NCBI GenBank assembly: GCA_014804345.1
Contig: JAAUZZ010000027.1
Span: 1 to 40,851 of the forward strand
Reading direction: 5' to 3'
DNA from: Lachnospiraceae bacterium
GTDB lineage: Bacteria > Bacillota > Clostridia > Lachnospirales > Lachnospiraceae
DNA: 40,851 nt
In this document: one piece after another, positions 3,700 through 16,300 of the stretch
Layout of the letters: every line of letters begins with the position of its first letter
Numbering within the stretch: position 1 is the stretch's first letter
The notes under the pieces: generated by a model
The model's input: only the letters and a program-made list of their open reading frames with translations
Database searches by the model: none
Told to the model about the DNA's origin: nothing
Made by a program: the position numbers and the translations under genes

Positions 3700-3981
3700 T
3701 TGATCCTGAAAAATATTCTTATCATACAGGGAGGCGGCCGCGCCAACGGCAATACCGCTCAGCTCATTAACAGCTTTGCAAAAGACGCAGAAGAAAAAGG
3801 GCATTTCGTTGAGATTATTTCCCTTGTAAAGAATGAAGTCAGGGGATGTCTTGGCTGCAATGCATGCCGCTATGGGAAACCTTGTGTCCAAAAAGATTCC
3901 TTTAATGAGAGAATATTTATTCATAGCGCTATAAGTTATAGCCAGACACAAAAAACAGCGGCAATACAGTTTATGCGCTGA
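3700..3981 (+). pseudogene. Truncated NADPH-dependent FMN reductase / iron-sulfur flavoprotein-like gene
   Basis: The first about 67 residues match the N-terminus of flavodoxin-fold reductases: strand ILIIQGGGRANGNT (FMN phosphate loop), a helix, then the cysteine segment GCLGCNACRYGKPCVQKD typical of the iron-sulfur flavoprotein/NADPH-dependent reductase group. Those proteins are usually near 180 residues. Here homology stops after the cysteine region, and about 25 unrelated residues run into the end of oppF, convergently. Translation would start at TTG (3700-3702), behind GGAGG at 3692-3696. It is probably a non-functional 5' fragment left by a deletion. A short functional peptide is unlikely. 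Confidence 0.7.
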
Positions 3982-4714
3982 TATTTGCCGCCTCAAGCAA
4001 AAGCTGTGTATATTCACTTTTCGGATTTTGATAAATCTCTTCCACTTCGCCTTGCTCTAAGATAACGCCTTTTTGCATAATCATAACTCGATCGCACATC
4101 TGATACACCACACGCAAGTCATGTGAAATAAAGAGGATAGAGATGCCTAACTCTTGTTGCAGTTTTAACAAAAGCTTGATAATCTGAGCTTGGATTGTCA
4201 CATCAAGCGCGGAAACAGGCTCGTCTGCAATTAAAAAGGTTGTGTCACACAGAAGCGCAGCCGCGATTGCAATCCTCTGGCGCTGTCCACCGGAAAGTTC
4301 CGAAGGATAATGCTCCTTTACCCTGACATCAAGCCCTACCTTTTCAAGCATTTCATCCACGCGCTTAGTCCACTGCTCTCGTGTCAGTTTTTTGTCACCC
4401 TTTTTCATGCGCAACGGCTCCTCAAGAATCCACCCGATTTTCTTGGAAGGGTTGAGTGAACCGTAAGGATCCTGAAATACCATCTGCGGATTGTCACAAT
4501 CTAATTTAATACTGCCGTCAAACCGTTTCTGCATGCCAAGAATTGCCTTCGCAAGCGTCGTCTTTCCACAGCCGCTTTCACCCACAAGCCCTAAAATCTC
4601 ACCCTTTTTCATGCAAAAACTCACATCATGTAAAACATGCTGCAAGGCGTTGTCTTTTCTGCCTTTATTCTTATAATAGACATTTAGATTATCAACCTCT
4701 AAAATATGTTCCAT
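3971..4714 (-). CDS. oppF: Oligopeptide/dipeptide ABC transporter ATP-binding protein, OppF/DppF type
   Basis: One of the two ATPases driving the opp importer encoded upstream. At 247 residues it carries Walker A GESGCGKTT, a Q-loop (MVFQDPYGSLNP), the ABC signature LSGGQRQR, Walker B LIADEPVSALD and a switch histidine (ISHDL). It lacks the long C-terminal extension of many OppF proteins but is otherwise complete. The ATG at 4712-4714 has a GGTGA site. It is separated from oppD by the type III toxin-antitoxin locus and starts only 27 nt after the toxin stop, so its mRNA must read through that locus or start at the locus promoter. Confidence 0.92.
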   Translation of the reverse strand: MEHILEVDNLNVYYKNKGRKDNALQHVLHDVSFCMKKGEILGLVGESGCGKTTLAKAILGMQKRFDGSIKLDCDNPQMVFQDPYGSLNPSKKIGWILEEPLRMKKGDKKLTREQWTKRVDEMLEKVGLDVRVKEHYPSELSGGQRQRIAIAAALLCDTTFLIADEPVSALDVTIQAQIIKLLLKLQQELGISILFISHDLRVVYQMCDRVMIMQKGVILEQGEVEEIYQNPKSEYTQLLLEAANISA

Positions 4715-4741: not shown

Positions 4742-5254
4742 TTAAATCGTTCCTTTTTGCTTCTGTTCTATGTATGCCTTATATCCGTTTTCCAGTATCT
4801 TAAAATCACAACTGTTATCTGTTAATACTTGCTTTCGATTTTCTGTTACTTTTTTATAAATCCTATCTGCTTTCTTTTGAATCTGATCCGCATGATTTAT
4901 GCAAAACTGATATTCTTTATTTAATAGCATTCGATACTTTTCGTCCTCTATATCCTTAATAACCAGCTTTTCAATACACGCATCAGGAACCGGAAACATA
5001 TAATTAAACCGCAAGGAACCTTTCACTTCCTTTTTATCCCCAGGCACTCTAATCAAAATATTTGCCTCCTGCTTTTTATCAAAAGAAGATACAGATACAT
5101 AATAATTCATACCATTGACCTGTAGAACTGCTCCAAATGCGAATTTATTTCGATCTGTATATCGAATATTTGGTACCTTCGTAAACCCACGTTTTTCTTT
5201 CTCATATTTTTGAAGAAATTGGCTATATTCTTCATTTATCCGATAAAAATCCAT
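4742..5254 (-). CDS. toxN: Type III toxin-antitoxin endoribonuclease, ToxN/AbiQ family
   Basis: A predicted sequence-specific endoribonuclease held inactive by its own repeat RNA; family members act in phage abortive infection and plasmid or locus maintenance. It has 170 residues, the size of ToxN and AbiQ. Visible family features: N-terminal MDFYRINEEYSQFL, a conserved GAVL...YYVSVSSFDKK strand (residues 41-61; Ser56/57 and Lys60/61 are candidates for the active-site Ser/Lys), RFNYMFPVPD (82-91), and a C-terminal helical region with KYRMLLNKEYQF and ADRIYKKV. The start is ATG 5252-5254 behind GTGAGGGAG. The reading frame stays open 36 codons further, but those codons lie in the terminator and RNA repeats and are rejected. 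Identification rests on motif and architecture recognition. Confidence 0.88.
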   Translation of the reverse strand: MDFYRINEEYSQFLQKYEKEKRGFTKVPNIRYTDRNKFAFGAVLQVNGMNYYVSVSSFDKKQEANILIRVPGDKKEVKGSLRFNYMFPVPDACIEKLVIKDIEDEKYRMLLNKEYQFCINHADQIQKKADRIYKKVTENRKQVLTDNSCDFKILENGYKAYIEQKQKGTI

Positions 5255-5273
5255 ATACTCCCTCACAATACAG

Positions 5274-5303
5274 AAAAACAGGGAGATAAAACCTATCTCC
5301 CTG
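5274..5303 (-). terminator. Attenuating terminator between antitoxin RNA and toxin gene
   Basis: A perfect 10-bp stem (5279-5288 with 5294-5303) has a 5-nt loop, followed on the minus strand by five U residues (5274-5278). It lies 20 nt before the toxin ATG and just after the last antitoxin repeat. In type III loci such a terminator sets an excess of antitoxin RNA over toxin mRNA. Confidence 0.85.
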
Positions 5304-5434
5304 AAAATTAACGGTTCGCATTCAAAGCTGCGAAGCACTTTAATGAAAAGGTTCACATTCAAAGTAGTGAAGCACTTTAATTAAAGGTTTGCACTCAAAG
5401 TAGCAAAGCACTTCAATTGAGCAAATCTCTGCTC
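5304..5434 (-). ncRNA. toxI: Type III antitoxin RNA (ToxI-like), three tandem repeats
   Basis: The predicted transcript starts about 7 nt after the -10 at 5441-5446 and ends at the terminator. It holds a short 5' hairpin (5419-5423 with 5430-5434) and three contiguous repeats of 36, 36 and 37 nt. Each repeat can form a 5-bp stem with a 10-nt loop: TTTGC/GCAAA, TTCAC/GTGAA and TTCGC/GCGAA. The changes between copies are compensatory. The loop CTTTGA can pair with a TTAAAG or TTGAAG just upstream of the stem, giving an H-type pseudoknot as known for ToxI. Mature units would be released by the toxin. Confidence 0.85.
5313..5421 (-). repeat. Tandem antitoxin repeats (36, 36, 37 nt)
   Basis: In transcription order the copies are 5421-5386, 5385-5350 and 5349-5313. 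All share the core AAGTGCTT, a C(A/T)...CTTTGA centre and an AACC end. There are no spacers between copies, so this is not a CRISPR array. Variation is concentrated in the two stem arms and in the AT-rich 5' end of each unit. Confidence 0.9.
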
Positions 5435-5440
5435 AACATT

Positions 5441-5469
5441 ATTATATGCAACTTTTTAGGGAAAATCAA
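5441..5469 (-). promoter_or_regulatory. Promoter of the type III toxin-antitoxin locus
   Basis: Minus-strand TTGATT (5464-5469), a 17-bp spacer, and a perfect TATAAT (5441-5446). It lies 33 bp after the oppD stop codon and directly before the antitoxin RNA. Consensus quality fits the strong constitutive expression an RNA antitoxin requires. Confidence 0.8.
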
Positions 5470-5502: not shown

Positions 5503-6297
5503 TCATAACACCTTCTCCAACTTCGGTATCGCATTGATCAGCTCCCGCGTATAACTCTCCTGTGGATTGTCAAAAATCGCCTGTGTCGCGCCCTGTTCTA
5601 CCACATCTCCGTTTTGCATCACAATAATCCTACCGCAAAGACGTTTCACAAGGCTCAGATCATGCGAAATAAAAAGCACAGCCATATTTTTCTCTTTGTT
5701 CAACCGCTGCAGAAGCTTTACAATCTGAAGCTGTATCGTCACGTCAAGCGCTGTCGTCGGCTCGTCCGCAATCAAAAGCTTCGGCTCACAAATCATCGCT
5801 GACGCAATCATCACACGCTGACGCATTCCTCCCGAAAGCTCATGCGGATATTTCCTGTAAATCTGCTCGGGATTTGGCAGTTCCACATCTGACAAAGCTT
5901 CGATCGCACGACGCTTCCGTTCACTTTGACTCATATCTGGCTTATGGATTTTTAAACTTTCCTCTACCTGCCAGCCAATCCTCTTTACCGGATTGAGCGA
6001 AGTCATAGGTTCCTGAAAAATAATGCTGATATCGTTTCCCTGATAATTTCGAAGCTCCGCGCGCGAGGCGTGCAAAAGCTCCTTTCCATCAAAGAAAATC
6101 TCGCCCTTTTTTTCCAAGTCGTGTCGCTTTAAAAGCCCTGCAATCGCCATTGCCGTCATCGACTTACCGGAACCTGATTCTCCCACAATTCCAAGTATTT
6201 CTCCCTCCTCGAGAGAAAAACTCACATGATTTACCACCCGCTCGGGAACATCGTGGTCATGAAATTCTATGCATAAATCCTTGATTTCCAACAACAT
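5503..6297 (-). CDS. oppD: Oligopeptide/dipeptide ABC transporter ATP-binding protein, OppD/DppD type
   Basis: The first ATPase of the opp importer, 264 residues. Walker A is GESGSGKSMT, the Q-loop IIFQEPMTSLNP, the signature LSGGMRQR, Walker B LLIADEPTTALD, with ISHDL after it. The ATG at 6295-6297 is chosen because AGGAGGG (6306-6312) lies 8 nt upstream and overlaps the oppC stop. An in-frame upstream extension of 20 codons lies inside oppC. It ends 33 bp before the toxin-antitoxin promoter. It is shorter than many OppD proteins, which carry a C-terminal cysteine-rich tail not seen here. Confidence 0.93.
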   Translation of the reverse strand: MLLEIKDLCIEFHDHDVPERVVNHVSFSLEEGEILGIVGESGSGKSMTAMAIAGLLKRHDLEKKGEIFFDGKELLHASRAELRNYQGNDISIIFQEPMTSLNPVKRIGWQVEESLKIHKPDMSQSERKRRAIEALSDVELPNPEQIYRKYPHELSGGMRQRVMIASAMICEPKLLIADEPTTALDVTIQLQIVKLLQRLNKEKNMAVLFISHDLSLVKRLCGRIIVMQNGDVVEQGATQAIFDNPQESYTRELINAIPKLEKVL

Positions 6298-13368: not shown

Positions 13369-16300
13369 ACTCTGAGAGAGGTATAGCGCTCCGTATGGTC
13401 TGGATGCTCATTAAGGTATGTATCCAGAGCGTTCTGGAATCCTTGGTTTGCCTCAGGATATGCCAGAAGGAATTTGCGTAGTTGCATCACAGTCTGACGC
13501 AAAGTCTCGGGTTCTTGTTTCAATGTCAGATTAAACAGCGTTTGGGCATATGACAATTGTATATCCGTATTTTTGCGGTATTTTGAGAGCAGTTTTTTTG
13601 CTTGCTGTGCATTCTTTTGAACATCGGCTTCTTCGGTTTGTTTTAAAGATAAATTAACCAACCCCTTCGAATACTCAACCGCAAGTTCTGCACTTGTTGA
13701 AGACTGTTCATAAAGCTGCCTCAGCTTGTCTACACTGTGCGTACACTCCTCCAATGTCTGTTTTTCGCACAGATTAACCAAACCCTTCCCATACTCAACC
13801 GCAAGCTCTGCACTTGTTGGAGACTGTTCATAAAGCAATCTCAGCTTGTCTACACTGTGCGTACACTCCTCCAATGTCTGGTCTGCGCACAGATTAACCA
13901 AACCCTTTCCATACAAGACAGCAAATTCTGCACTTGTTGAAGACTGCTCATAAAGCTGTCTCAGCTTGTCTACACTTTTCACACGATCTCCCAATGTCTG
14001 GTCTACGGAAAGATTAACCAACCCACTCCCATACTCAACCACAAGTTCTGCACTTGTTGGAGACTGTTCATAAAGCTGTCTCAGCTTGTCTACACTTTTC
14101 ACACGATCCCCCAATGTCTGTTCTGCGGAAAGATTAACCAACCCTTTTGCATACGCAACCACAAGTTCTGCACTTATTGGGAACTGTTCATAAAGCTGTC
14201 TCAGCTTGTCTACACTTTTCACACAATCTTCCAATGTCTGTTTTACGGAAAGATTGACCAGCCCCTTCGCATACTCGAGCATAAGTCCTGTACTTGTTGG
14301 AAACTGTTCATAAAGCTGCCTCAACTTGTCTACACTTTTCACACGATCCCCCAATGTCTGGTCTACGGACAGATTAACCAAACCCTTCCCATACTTGATC
14401 GCAATATCTTCGCTGTCGTGGAAATGGTAATACAGTTTTTCCAGTCGATCCAGTGCTTGCTTTTTCATTTTGGGAATTTGCACTGTAGTAACATACAGCA
14501 AATCGCCATATAACTGTGCAAAAAACTCTAATTCTGGTTCGCCTGCAAAAAAGAACGTCCAAAATTGATTGTTTCCCTCCAGTTTTTCCGGATAGTCAAT
14601 TAAAATTCGACAAAGGAAAAACAGTTGCATGGGATTGGTAACCCAATCCTTTGGAAGCAGGAGCTGCAATTGGTTCTTGTTAAGGGTCTGGCGTAAAACA
14701 AGGTACTCTTTTATCAGATCCGGGCAATCCAACACAATAGCCTCCATGATGCCCTCTTGAATTACCTGATCGTTCGATTCGTCATCTTCTATTTGAATAT
14801 GGACTGTAATTTTATGAACAATTCCTATCTGGCGAAGCATTTCATAGAAAGTCAAATCTAATTTATCAGCTATTTTATGGAGTCTTGGGTATTTGTCATC
14901 AGCTATTTGATCTAGCTGCAAAAAGGGCACTGTACACGATTGAGCCAGCAGATTTTCCAATTCAGAACGGGTTTCTTTAGAGATTTTATCCGGGGATAAG
15001 CTGCACAGCCTGCAATAGTAAAACTTTAATTCGCGCATGACCAGTGTATCCAGAACCTGCTCTTTACTCCAGTGGGCAGGGTCTTTTCCGCCACACCATG
15101 CATCTGTAATCGCCAAGGCATAAATCGGGCGTTGTAGGTCGCCATCGATTTTTTTCAAGGTTCTCAACAGACGGTCAGTATGTTCGCTGTCCACCAACGG
15201 CTTGCCCGACACTTTGGCAAAGTCCATCATTATATCCTTTAACTCGTCGTCTGACAATGGCGCTAAATTCAAAAAATCGGAGCAATAGCATTTGGAGGAA
15301 ATTGTATCGTCATAAGGAGACTCAGACTGCATCAGCTCAGCCCATTTGGCAGAGTCCAAATCCTTTCCATTCCGTTCCAATAATATAATCCTCAACTTTT
15401 CGCTGCGCTGACGTGATGAAATGGAGATGATCCAATCCCCAATCGTCTGAAGATGCGCCTGAACATCATCCATTACTACGATACAGCGATCGACAGGCGG
15501 TGTCCAACTGTTTAGATTGTCATAATCGCTATGTTTCAGCCAACAAATCTTCCACCCAACTTCTCTTTGCGCATTCGTAAATTCATACACAAGCCGGCTC
15601 TTCCCTATGCCGCCAGAACCTGCAACAGCCCACCAGGAAATTTGCTCGGTATCCTGACAAAACTCTTGCAGCTGCGCAAGTTCCTGTTCACGACCTACAA
15701 AAGTGATATAATTGGAGTCATACATAAAGCGGTTTGCTGAATTGAGTGCAGGAACAGATTTTTTAGTATAGCGGCACAGTTCTTCATATGCACTATGATT
15801 GGTGTCTTCCAGCAACCGCTCCAATATGACGCGAACCGCCTCATGTCTTCCATCCGGATAATAGATGGCAGATATTCCCCAATTGCCCAATTCAATGCAC
15901 CGCTGCGGTATATCGCCTGGACAGCATGCAAGAATTGCATAATGATCCAGCCCGGGATTTTTGCTCGTCACCTGCTGGAGAACACCCATCGTTTTATCCT
16001 TTGCAAGGCTACAGCCTAAGAACAGCAATTTCTTACTCTGAAACCACTGCGGCAATTCCTGCATGAGAGGGCCGTCATTGGCGTATGCTCTATCATATTG
16101 TGTTTTAGTAAATATCAGCCGTTCTATGTCATGGATATCTGGACCAATATCGCCATGCAACTTGAATAAACAGCGGGGATTGTTCTGACGGCTTTGCGTC
16201 AGAAGATCAGGTTCATAAGGTGTAATGACTTTTTCAAATTTTTTGTGGCACTTGTCAAATACCTCCTCTAGTACACGGTCAAAATTGGTGGTCATAACGA

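Follow-up and report, generated by a model that had tools for sequence, protein, structure and literature searches.

ToxIN of Pectobacterium atrosepticum (ToxIN-Pa) has a ToxI antitoxin array of 5.5 repeat copies. The literature describes its order of parts, its units folded as H-type pseudoknots, its terminator 5' of toxN (PMC5086642) and a unit length of 36 nt (PMC3475682), and in all of these it resembles the locus analyzed here, which lies on the minus strand at positions 4742-5469 of a 40,851-nt stretch of Lachnospiraceae DNA (contig JAAUZZ010000027.1; the whole stretch is called the window below). The predicted fold of the toxin is likewise similar (TM 0.76 and 0.79 for PDB 2xd0 and 2xdd). 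However, the two toxins are only 22% identical in the structural alignment, the linkers differ, and the units of the window are dissimilar and position-specific, whereas those of ToxI-Pa are near-identical, with a single variable base (PMC3475682). AbiQ/antiQ of the Lactococcus plasmid pSRQ900 (PDB 4glk; L059) shares the family and the layout with the window locus, its toxin being 27% identical (tblastn); its array consists of 2.9 copies of 35-nt units with 98% matches, as compared with 80% in the window. The toxin encoded by the Clostridioides phage ES-S-0107-01 is 47% identical to the window toxN over 89% of the query and is accompanied by an array with a period of 36 and 3.1 copies, two units of which are weakly matched by the window-unit model; this system differs in its location on a phage record and in its units (68% matched). 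Its locus (L057, 2326-2947), with its own related array, was the nearest phage-borne relative found. As to CptIN, it has the same type III layout, but membership in this family was rejected: the CptN structure 4rmo gave E 0.038 and TM 0.35-0.38 in the fold search, and the window units are 36-37 nt long, while gut CptIN repeats have 40-47 nt (PMC6315513). The question of the subtype, left unanswered by the initial annotation, can thus be answered with the ToxIN family rather than CptIN; the gut type III table in PMC6315513 contains no 36-nt three-repeat toxIN.

We consider the window locus to be an intact type III toxin-antitoxin module that lies on the chromosome and belongs to the ToxIN family, with a probability of about 95% as judged from its sequence. 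All the parts that the initial annotation had listed were found in place and in order. The sigma-70-type promoter of toxI (5441-5469) comprises the -35 element TTGATT (5469-5464), a 17-nt spacer and the -10 element TATAAT (5446-5441), matching 10 of 12 consensus positions. Since the surrounding 2.5-kb stretch contains 11 promoter-like sites against a shuffled mean of 5.9, this match by itself is weak; a site with at least nine consensus matches, ending 16-26 nt 5' of the first unit, is present in 21 of 24 toxN-bearing arrays (including L161 and L119, both without complete toxN), and the consensus site is the probable single promoter 5' of the ToxI repeats. It is followed by a leader stem-loop (5416-5437; folding z -3.3), whose 3' strand overlaps the beginning of the first unit, and by three units: R1 (5386-5421, 36 nt, stem 2 UUUGC/GCAAA, 50.5 bits with the covariance model), R2 (5350-5385, 36 nt, UUCAC/GUGAA, 55.2 bits) and R3 (5313-5349, 37 nt, UUCGC/GCGAA, 55.3 bits for 5313-5348). 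The leader hairpin was dropped as a strong result: its core pairs were retained in 90 of 90 cases in 18 chosen toxN-bearing arrays, but in this best-position count, which left out non-aligning leaders such as those of L119, L141 and L144, shuffles reach 86. Alternative paired forms of this stem-loop (GAGCA/UGCUC, GAACA/UGUUC, GAACC/GGUUC, GAUCA/UGAUC) were noticed by eye in the relatives. The gap between toxI and toxN is occupied by an intrinsic terminator (5279-5303; -14.9 kcal/mol, z -4.6) with a 10-bp stem followed by TTTTT, and similar hairpins are present in the relatives. Then come the ribosome-binding site GAGGGAG (5258-5264), read from the sequence, and toxN (4742-5254, ATG at 5254, stop at 4742), predicted to encode a 170-residue endoribonuclease toxin of the ToxN/AbiQ family. 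The warning that an upstream extension of this frame hides the repeats was justified, as the TTG-started frame 4742-5362 covers them.

The profile search proposed with the initial annotation gave strong matches of the ToxN protein: PF13958 was its best Pfam match (E 3.6e-45, 154.4 bits at a cut-off of 25), and the PADLOC AbiQ profile matched with E 1.6e-30; in NCBIfam, no match was found at E 1e-10. By phmmer, the protein matches PDB entries 4ato, 2xd0, 4glk and 7d8o (E 4e-11 to 1e-7). The best of five AlphaFold2 models, built from 14 toxins, had pLDDT 85.7 and pTM 0.82 (the other four scored 56-68), and the top matches of this predicted structure were the same four ToxN/AbiQ entries of the PDB (E 3.9e-9 to 2.2e-7, TM 0.76-0.79), with ToxN/AbiQ entries being the only ones at E 0.001 or below. 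In all ten comparisons of the window toxN with relatives, calculated over the first 160 codons, pN (0.09-0.17) was far below pS (0.63-0.99), which indicates strong purifying selection on toxN where it is present. The active site of ToxN-Pa is formed by Tyr29, Lys33, Thr52, Ser53 and Lys55 (PMC5086642). In the phmmer alignment, Thr52 and Ser53 correspond to S56 and S57 of the window toxin, which are, respectively, invariant and nearly invariant in 24 toxins (in L115, counted as complete, His replaces the second active-site Ser); Lys55 is aligned with D59, adjoined by K60 and K61, while Y32 and K37 are conserved but displaced by two and one residues from Tyr29 and Lys33, which makes the counterparts of these three of the five positions tentative.

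The array itself was detected as a tandem repeat (5306-5418) with a period of 36, 3.1 copies and 80% matches. A degenerate unit pattern, derived from the window units and related ones, matched the window three times with at most two mismatches; all three matches lie within the array, and 100 shuffles gave none. Rfam families gave no match in the window at gathering thresholds. In the initial alignment of ten units (three from the window, three from L080 and two each from L081 and L082), a pseudoknot with a stem 1 of four pairs and a stem 2 of five fits 96.7% of 90 cells. The covariance model of the unit produced 142 matches in 54 sources, among which the match to the plus strand of the window (12 bits) was spurious and was excluded from the scripts. 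Of the 931 cells in the 142 rows (of which 105 are distinct), 95.6% are paired, and 71 show double changes against 22.8 in shuffles, none of 500 shuffles equalling this value. The shuffles take no account of relatedness, while pseudoknots slid along the alignment preserve it, and these controls gave at most 61.1% pairing and at most 10 double-change cells. Two pairs of stem 2 covary (C-G with U-A and G-C with A-U); the outermost pair of this stem is unpaired in 26 of the 99 rows that have letters there. Each ToxI unit thus fits an H-type pseudoknot with a covarying stem 2.

The units differ from each other in a way that is conserved between the loci. Identity between units at the same position of different loci is 83.3, 92.3 and 88.4%, as compared with 73.7% within one array, and in 20 arrays that combine three units with a complete toxN the nearest unit elsewhere occupied the same array position in 60 of 60 cases (63 of 63 once L119 is added). 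In 21 arrays (L119 included), stem 2 of R1 is GUUGC/GCAAA in 11 units, the 5' side of stem 2 of R2 is UUCAC in 20, and stem 2 of R3 is UUCGC/GCGAA in 20. These data suggest that the units of this subfamily are not interchangeable. The idea that position-specific units are unique to the subfamily was rejected: while the AbiQ array and an array on an E. faecium plasmid are 98-100% uniform, repeat matches are 76% in L002, 78% in L015 and 68% in the phage array, so that unevenness should be regarded as a trait of the subfamily but not an exclusive one.

Of 38 genomes from the genus, 17 (the own genome included) have PF13958 matches, mostly belonging to other ToxN subfamilies. In the family, the unit model matches 8 genomes out of 397, again including the own one. 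Among 84,980 species genomes, the unit pattern was found in 49 contigs, whose record titles name Lachnospiraceae, Oscillospiraceae, Selenomonadaceae, Anaerovibrio, Blautia, Roseburia, Hungatella, Faecalibacillus and others; this search passes over any array, L116 for example, in which the pattern is not matched exactly. Twenty toxins of the subfamily are 64-80% identical to the window toxN, and three outgroups 28-40%. We found no earlier description of a ToxIN subfamily of this type, which, on the sequences collected, spans several groups of Firmicutes, mostly from the gut and the rumen, and has its units conserved by position. Neither the 50,697 phage records nor the 72,556 plasmid records contained a match to the array DNA; the unit pattern was absent from viral contigs, where the protein scan gave six pattern stretches with no relative among them, and the toxins from 48 plasmid records were all less than 60% identical to the window toxN. 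In the same genus, partial, split or stop-containing ToxN genes of other subfamilies were seen (L012, L016, L022, L023/L025), which indicates that toxin decay is wider than the subfamily of the window.

The module is flanked by genes of two ABC transporter ATPases on the same strand, a peptide/nickel-type one upstream (5503-6297) and a second one downstream (3971-4714), which begins 27 nt past the toxN stop. The initial annotation had placed it between oppD and oppF. The ABC ATPase flanks were verified, but not the exact names of the transporters: the highest scores of both neighbors are with ABC ATPases for dipeptides, oligopeptides, microcin and nickel, but all 25 families listed for each of them stay below their curated cut-offs in NCBIfam, so "oppD" and "oppF" remain likenesses. 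In 20 congeners (L060-L079), the two ATPase genes are separated by 14-39 bp in six genomes, 80-138 bp in three and 510-3379 bp in eleven, the gaps of this last group containing unrelated ORFs. Nine gap proteins were scanned, of which five had Pfam matches (DUF402, SF0329, DUF1963, DUF6273 and RibD_C) and four had none; in the nearest congener (ATPases 97% identical) the junction carries the DUF402 gene. A regular residence of ToxIN at this junction was rejected, since none of the PF13958 matches of the genus lies in the junction of any of these 20 congeners. The junction, with its variety of unrelated ORFs, is thus a variable site for cargo, and ToxIN is one of its visitors. Two other features of the window were noted: a 93-aa ORF (3700-3981), which by eye resembles a truncated NADPH-dependent FMN reductase, is oriented convergently to the transporter operon, and a 120-bp repeat is present in six tandem copies with 86% matches at 13653-14395.

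By analogy with the characterized ToxIN systems, most transcripts would end at the terminator and yield ToxI RNA, while the few reading through it would produce ToxN, an endoribonuclease. The latter would cut the ToxI precursor between the pseudoknots, presumably in the inter-unit linker (UUUAAUU between R1 and R2; the cut sites of characterized systems are more A-rich, PMC8860590), and the freed units would trap ToxN in a closed ring, probably of three toxins and three RNAs. If the supply of ToxI stopped, for example upon phage-induced shut-off of transcription, ToxN would be freed and would cut cellular and phage RNA, so that infected cells would fail before the phage multiplied. Pairs of this kind are known to protect bacteria from phages; for the window module, the activity of ToxN, the processing of ToxI, the neutralization of the toxin and a role in phage defense or replicon maintenance are inferred from these relatives. 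The module is oriented in the direction of the operon, within the variable junction, and its terminator may reduce the transcription that reaches the second ATPase gene.

A different role of the repeats would be that of a cis-regulatory leader of the nuclease gene. Such an explanation accounts for an array and a terminator located, attenuator-like, directly 5' of the ORF, but we regard it as extremely improbable, given that the units are pseudoknots built like those of ToxI and show covariation, and that arrays with a promoter-like site and a terminator of their own exist where toxN is absent. An inactive remnant of a decayed module is also very unlikely: decay has affected many members of the family (24 of the 47 arrays discussed below), but in the window the ORF, start codon, ribosome-binding site, promoter, terminator and all three pseudoknot units are complete, and the pN of toxN is far below its pS. 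An intact module remains our preferred reading.

The status of toxN, established by a search with our own HMM, reading of the DNA, alignment of downstream regions and reading of ORFs, was tallied for 51 distinct arrays (the 49 pattern contigs, the window and L116, found by the model). Toxin genes of 23 loci, the window included, were complete (L131 was counted despite its ATA start; the toxins of L125 and L156 are identical and possibly come from one species), and the repeat array lies upstream of the toxin gene at all of them. With this and the strong profile matches, neither of the two outcomes that would have refuted the initial annotation was obtained. Four arrays (L110, L133, L134, L136) run up to the end of their contig or stop close to it, and among the 47 readable ones 24 have no complete toxN of their own. 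In six of these the gene is defective: residues about 26-75 are deleted in L117, about 51-90 in L128 and L162, and about 7-36 in L161, only about 100-166 are retained in L158, and in L119 the protein stops at 142 aa; the L117 and L128 genomes (Blautia glucerasea and Parablautia) are titled without MAG. Only an N-terminal stub of toxN is left in five arrays (L145, L148, L155 and L160, clear by eye, and L118, weak), and twelve show no trace of it (L080, L081, L116, L120, L121, L126, L142, L149, L151, L153, L154, L163). The array of L082 (1268-1339, G032), with two window-type units and a 15-bp terminator stem, stands immediately past the stop codon of a toxN that belongs to a different subfamily and has its own upstream array. 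Stand-alone arrays L080 (3191-3371), L081 (3906-4016) and L116 (about 2827-2970) were seen to combine a promoter-like site and a terminator with two or three units, toxN being absent; L116 has a pentapeptide/DUF6273 protein on one side and an unassigned protein on the other. By eye, the place of toxN is taken by a methyltransferase-like ORF in L163 and a HicA-like one in L120. No toxin of the same subfamily was found elsewhere in the 17 genomes with a stub or no trace, 15 of which are titled MAG (L120 is not); the assemblies of this set may be incomplete. A cognate toxin acting in trans was rejected: ten of these genomes have a PF13958 match, but of another subfamily (at most 37.5% identity to the window toxin in alignments of more than 11 residues).

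The likeliest explanation of the lone arrays, as far as their sequences tell, is loss of the toxin with the antidote lingering. In an addiction module the toxin would have to be lost first, which would be the order safe for the cell. Substitutions, scored relative to the closest unit of any complete-toxN array, fall on the 14 conserved columns of 36 in 14 of 54 cases in the 12 better-kept toxN-less arrays, as compared with 5 of 111 where toxN is complete (Fisher p 1e-4), but also with 21.0 expected at random (p 0.03). The proportion is 5/21 in relic-like arrays (L116, L118, L121, L126, L151; this split was chosen after inspection), 4/22 in the defective-toxN arrays and 1/9 in L082, and 19/75 in the better-kept and relic-like arrays pooled (p 7e-5). 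Constraint on the lone antidotes is thus partly relaxed, with which recent toxin loss agrees best. Selection of these arrays as decoy or anti-addiction RNAs, neutralizing incoming ToxN or disarming abortive infection by ToxIN, seems unlikely to us. Their substitutions still shun the conserved columns; L080, L081, L142, L149 and L154 have kept a promoter, at least two full units and a terminator without toxN; pairing in the twelve no-trace arrays is 94.1% (254/270), close to the 96.3% with complete toxN (573/595; stubs 97.8%, defective 96.3%), and in phage phiTE such mimics do evolve. Yet constraint is below that of the arrays accompanied by toxN, decay is visible in L118, L121, L126 and L151, the array DNA has no match in the phage and plasmid records, and the unit pattern has none in the viral contigs. 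The pseudo-ToxI of phiTE, according to PMC3475682, is a ToxI-like RNA without a toxin gene, as the lone arrays are; unlike them, it is a phage-borne element of 1.5 repeats, expanded under selection, while they belong to bacterial assemblies, mostly have two or three units and in some cases carry toxN stubs. In PMC open-access text it is the nearest counterpart, and no report of toxin-less ToxI in bacterial chromosomes was found there; an earlier mention elsewhere may exist. It is rather doubtful, and should be taken as quite improbable, that the lone arrays are a maintained class of RNA-only antitoxins immunizing against ToxN, with the three units being the matched set for one ToxN ring. If the latter were true, each precursor would supply the three different RNAs of one ring.

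The ToxIN module is sound and ordinary in kind, and the unexpected part is the antidote RNAs outliving their toxins. Among the relatives, the toxin gene has often been lost, with ToxI retained, suggesting that in many cases the module is not worth its upkeep. The subfamily presents a natural series from the intact module through the broken toxin and the toxin stub to the lone antidote RNA, and this makes it testable whether toxin-less cells keep the antidote by inertia or for protection.
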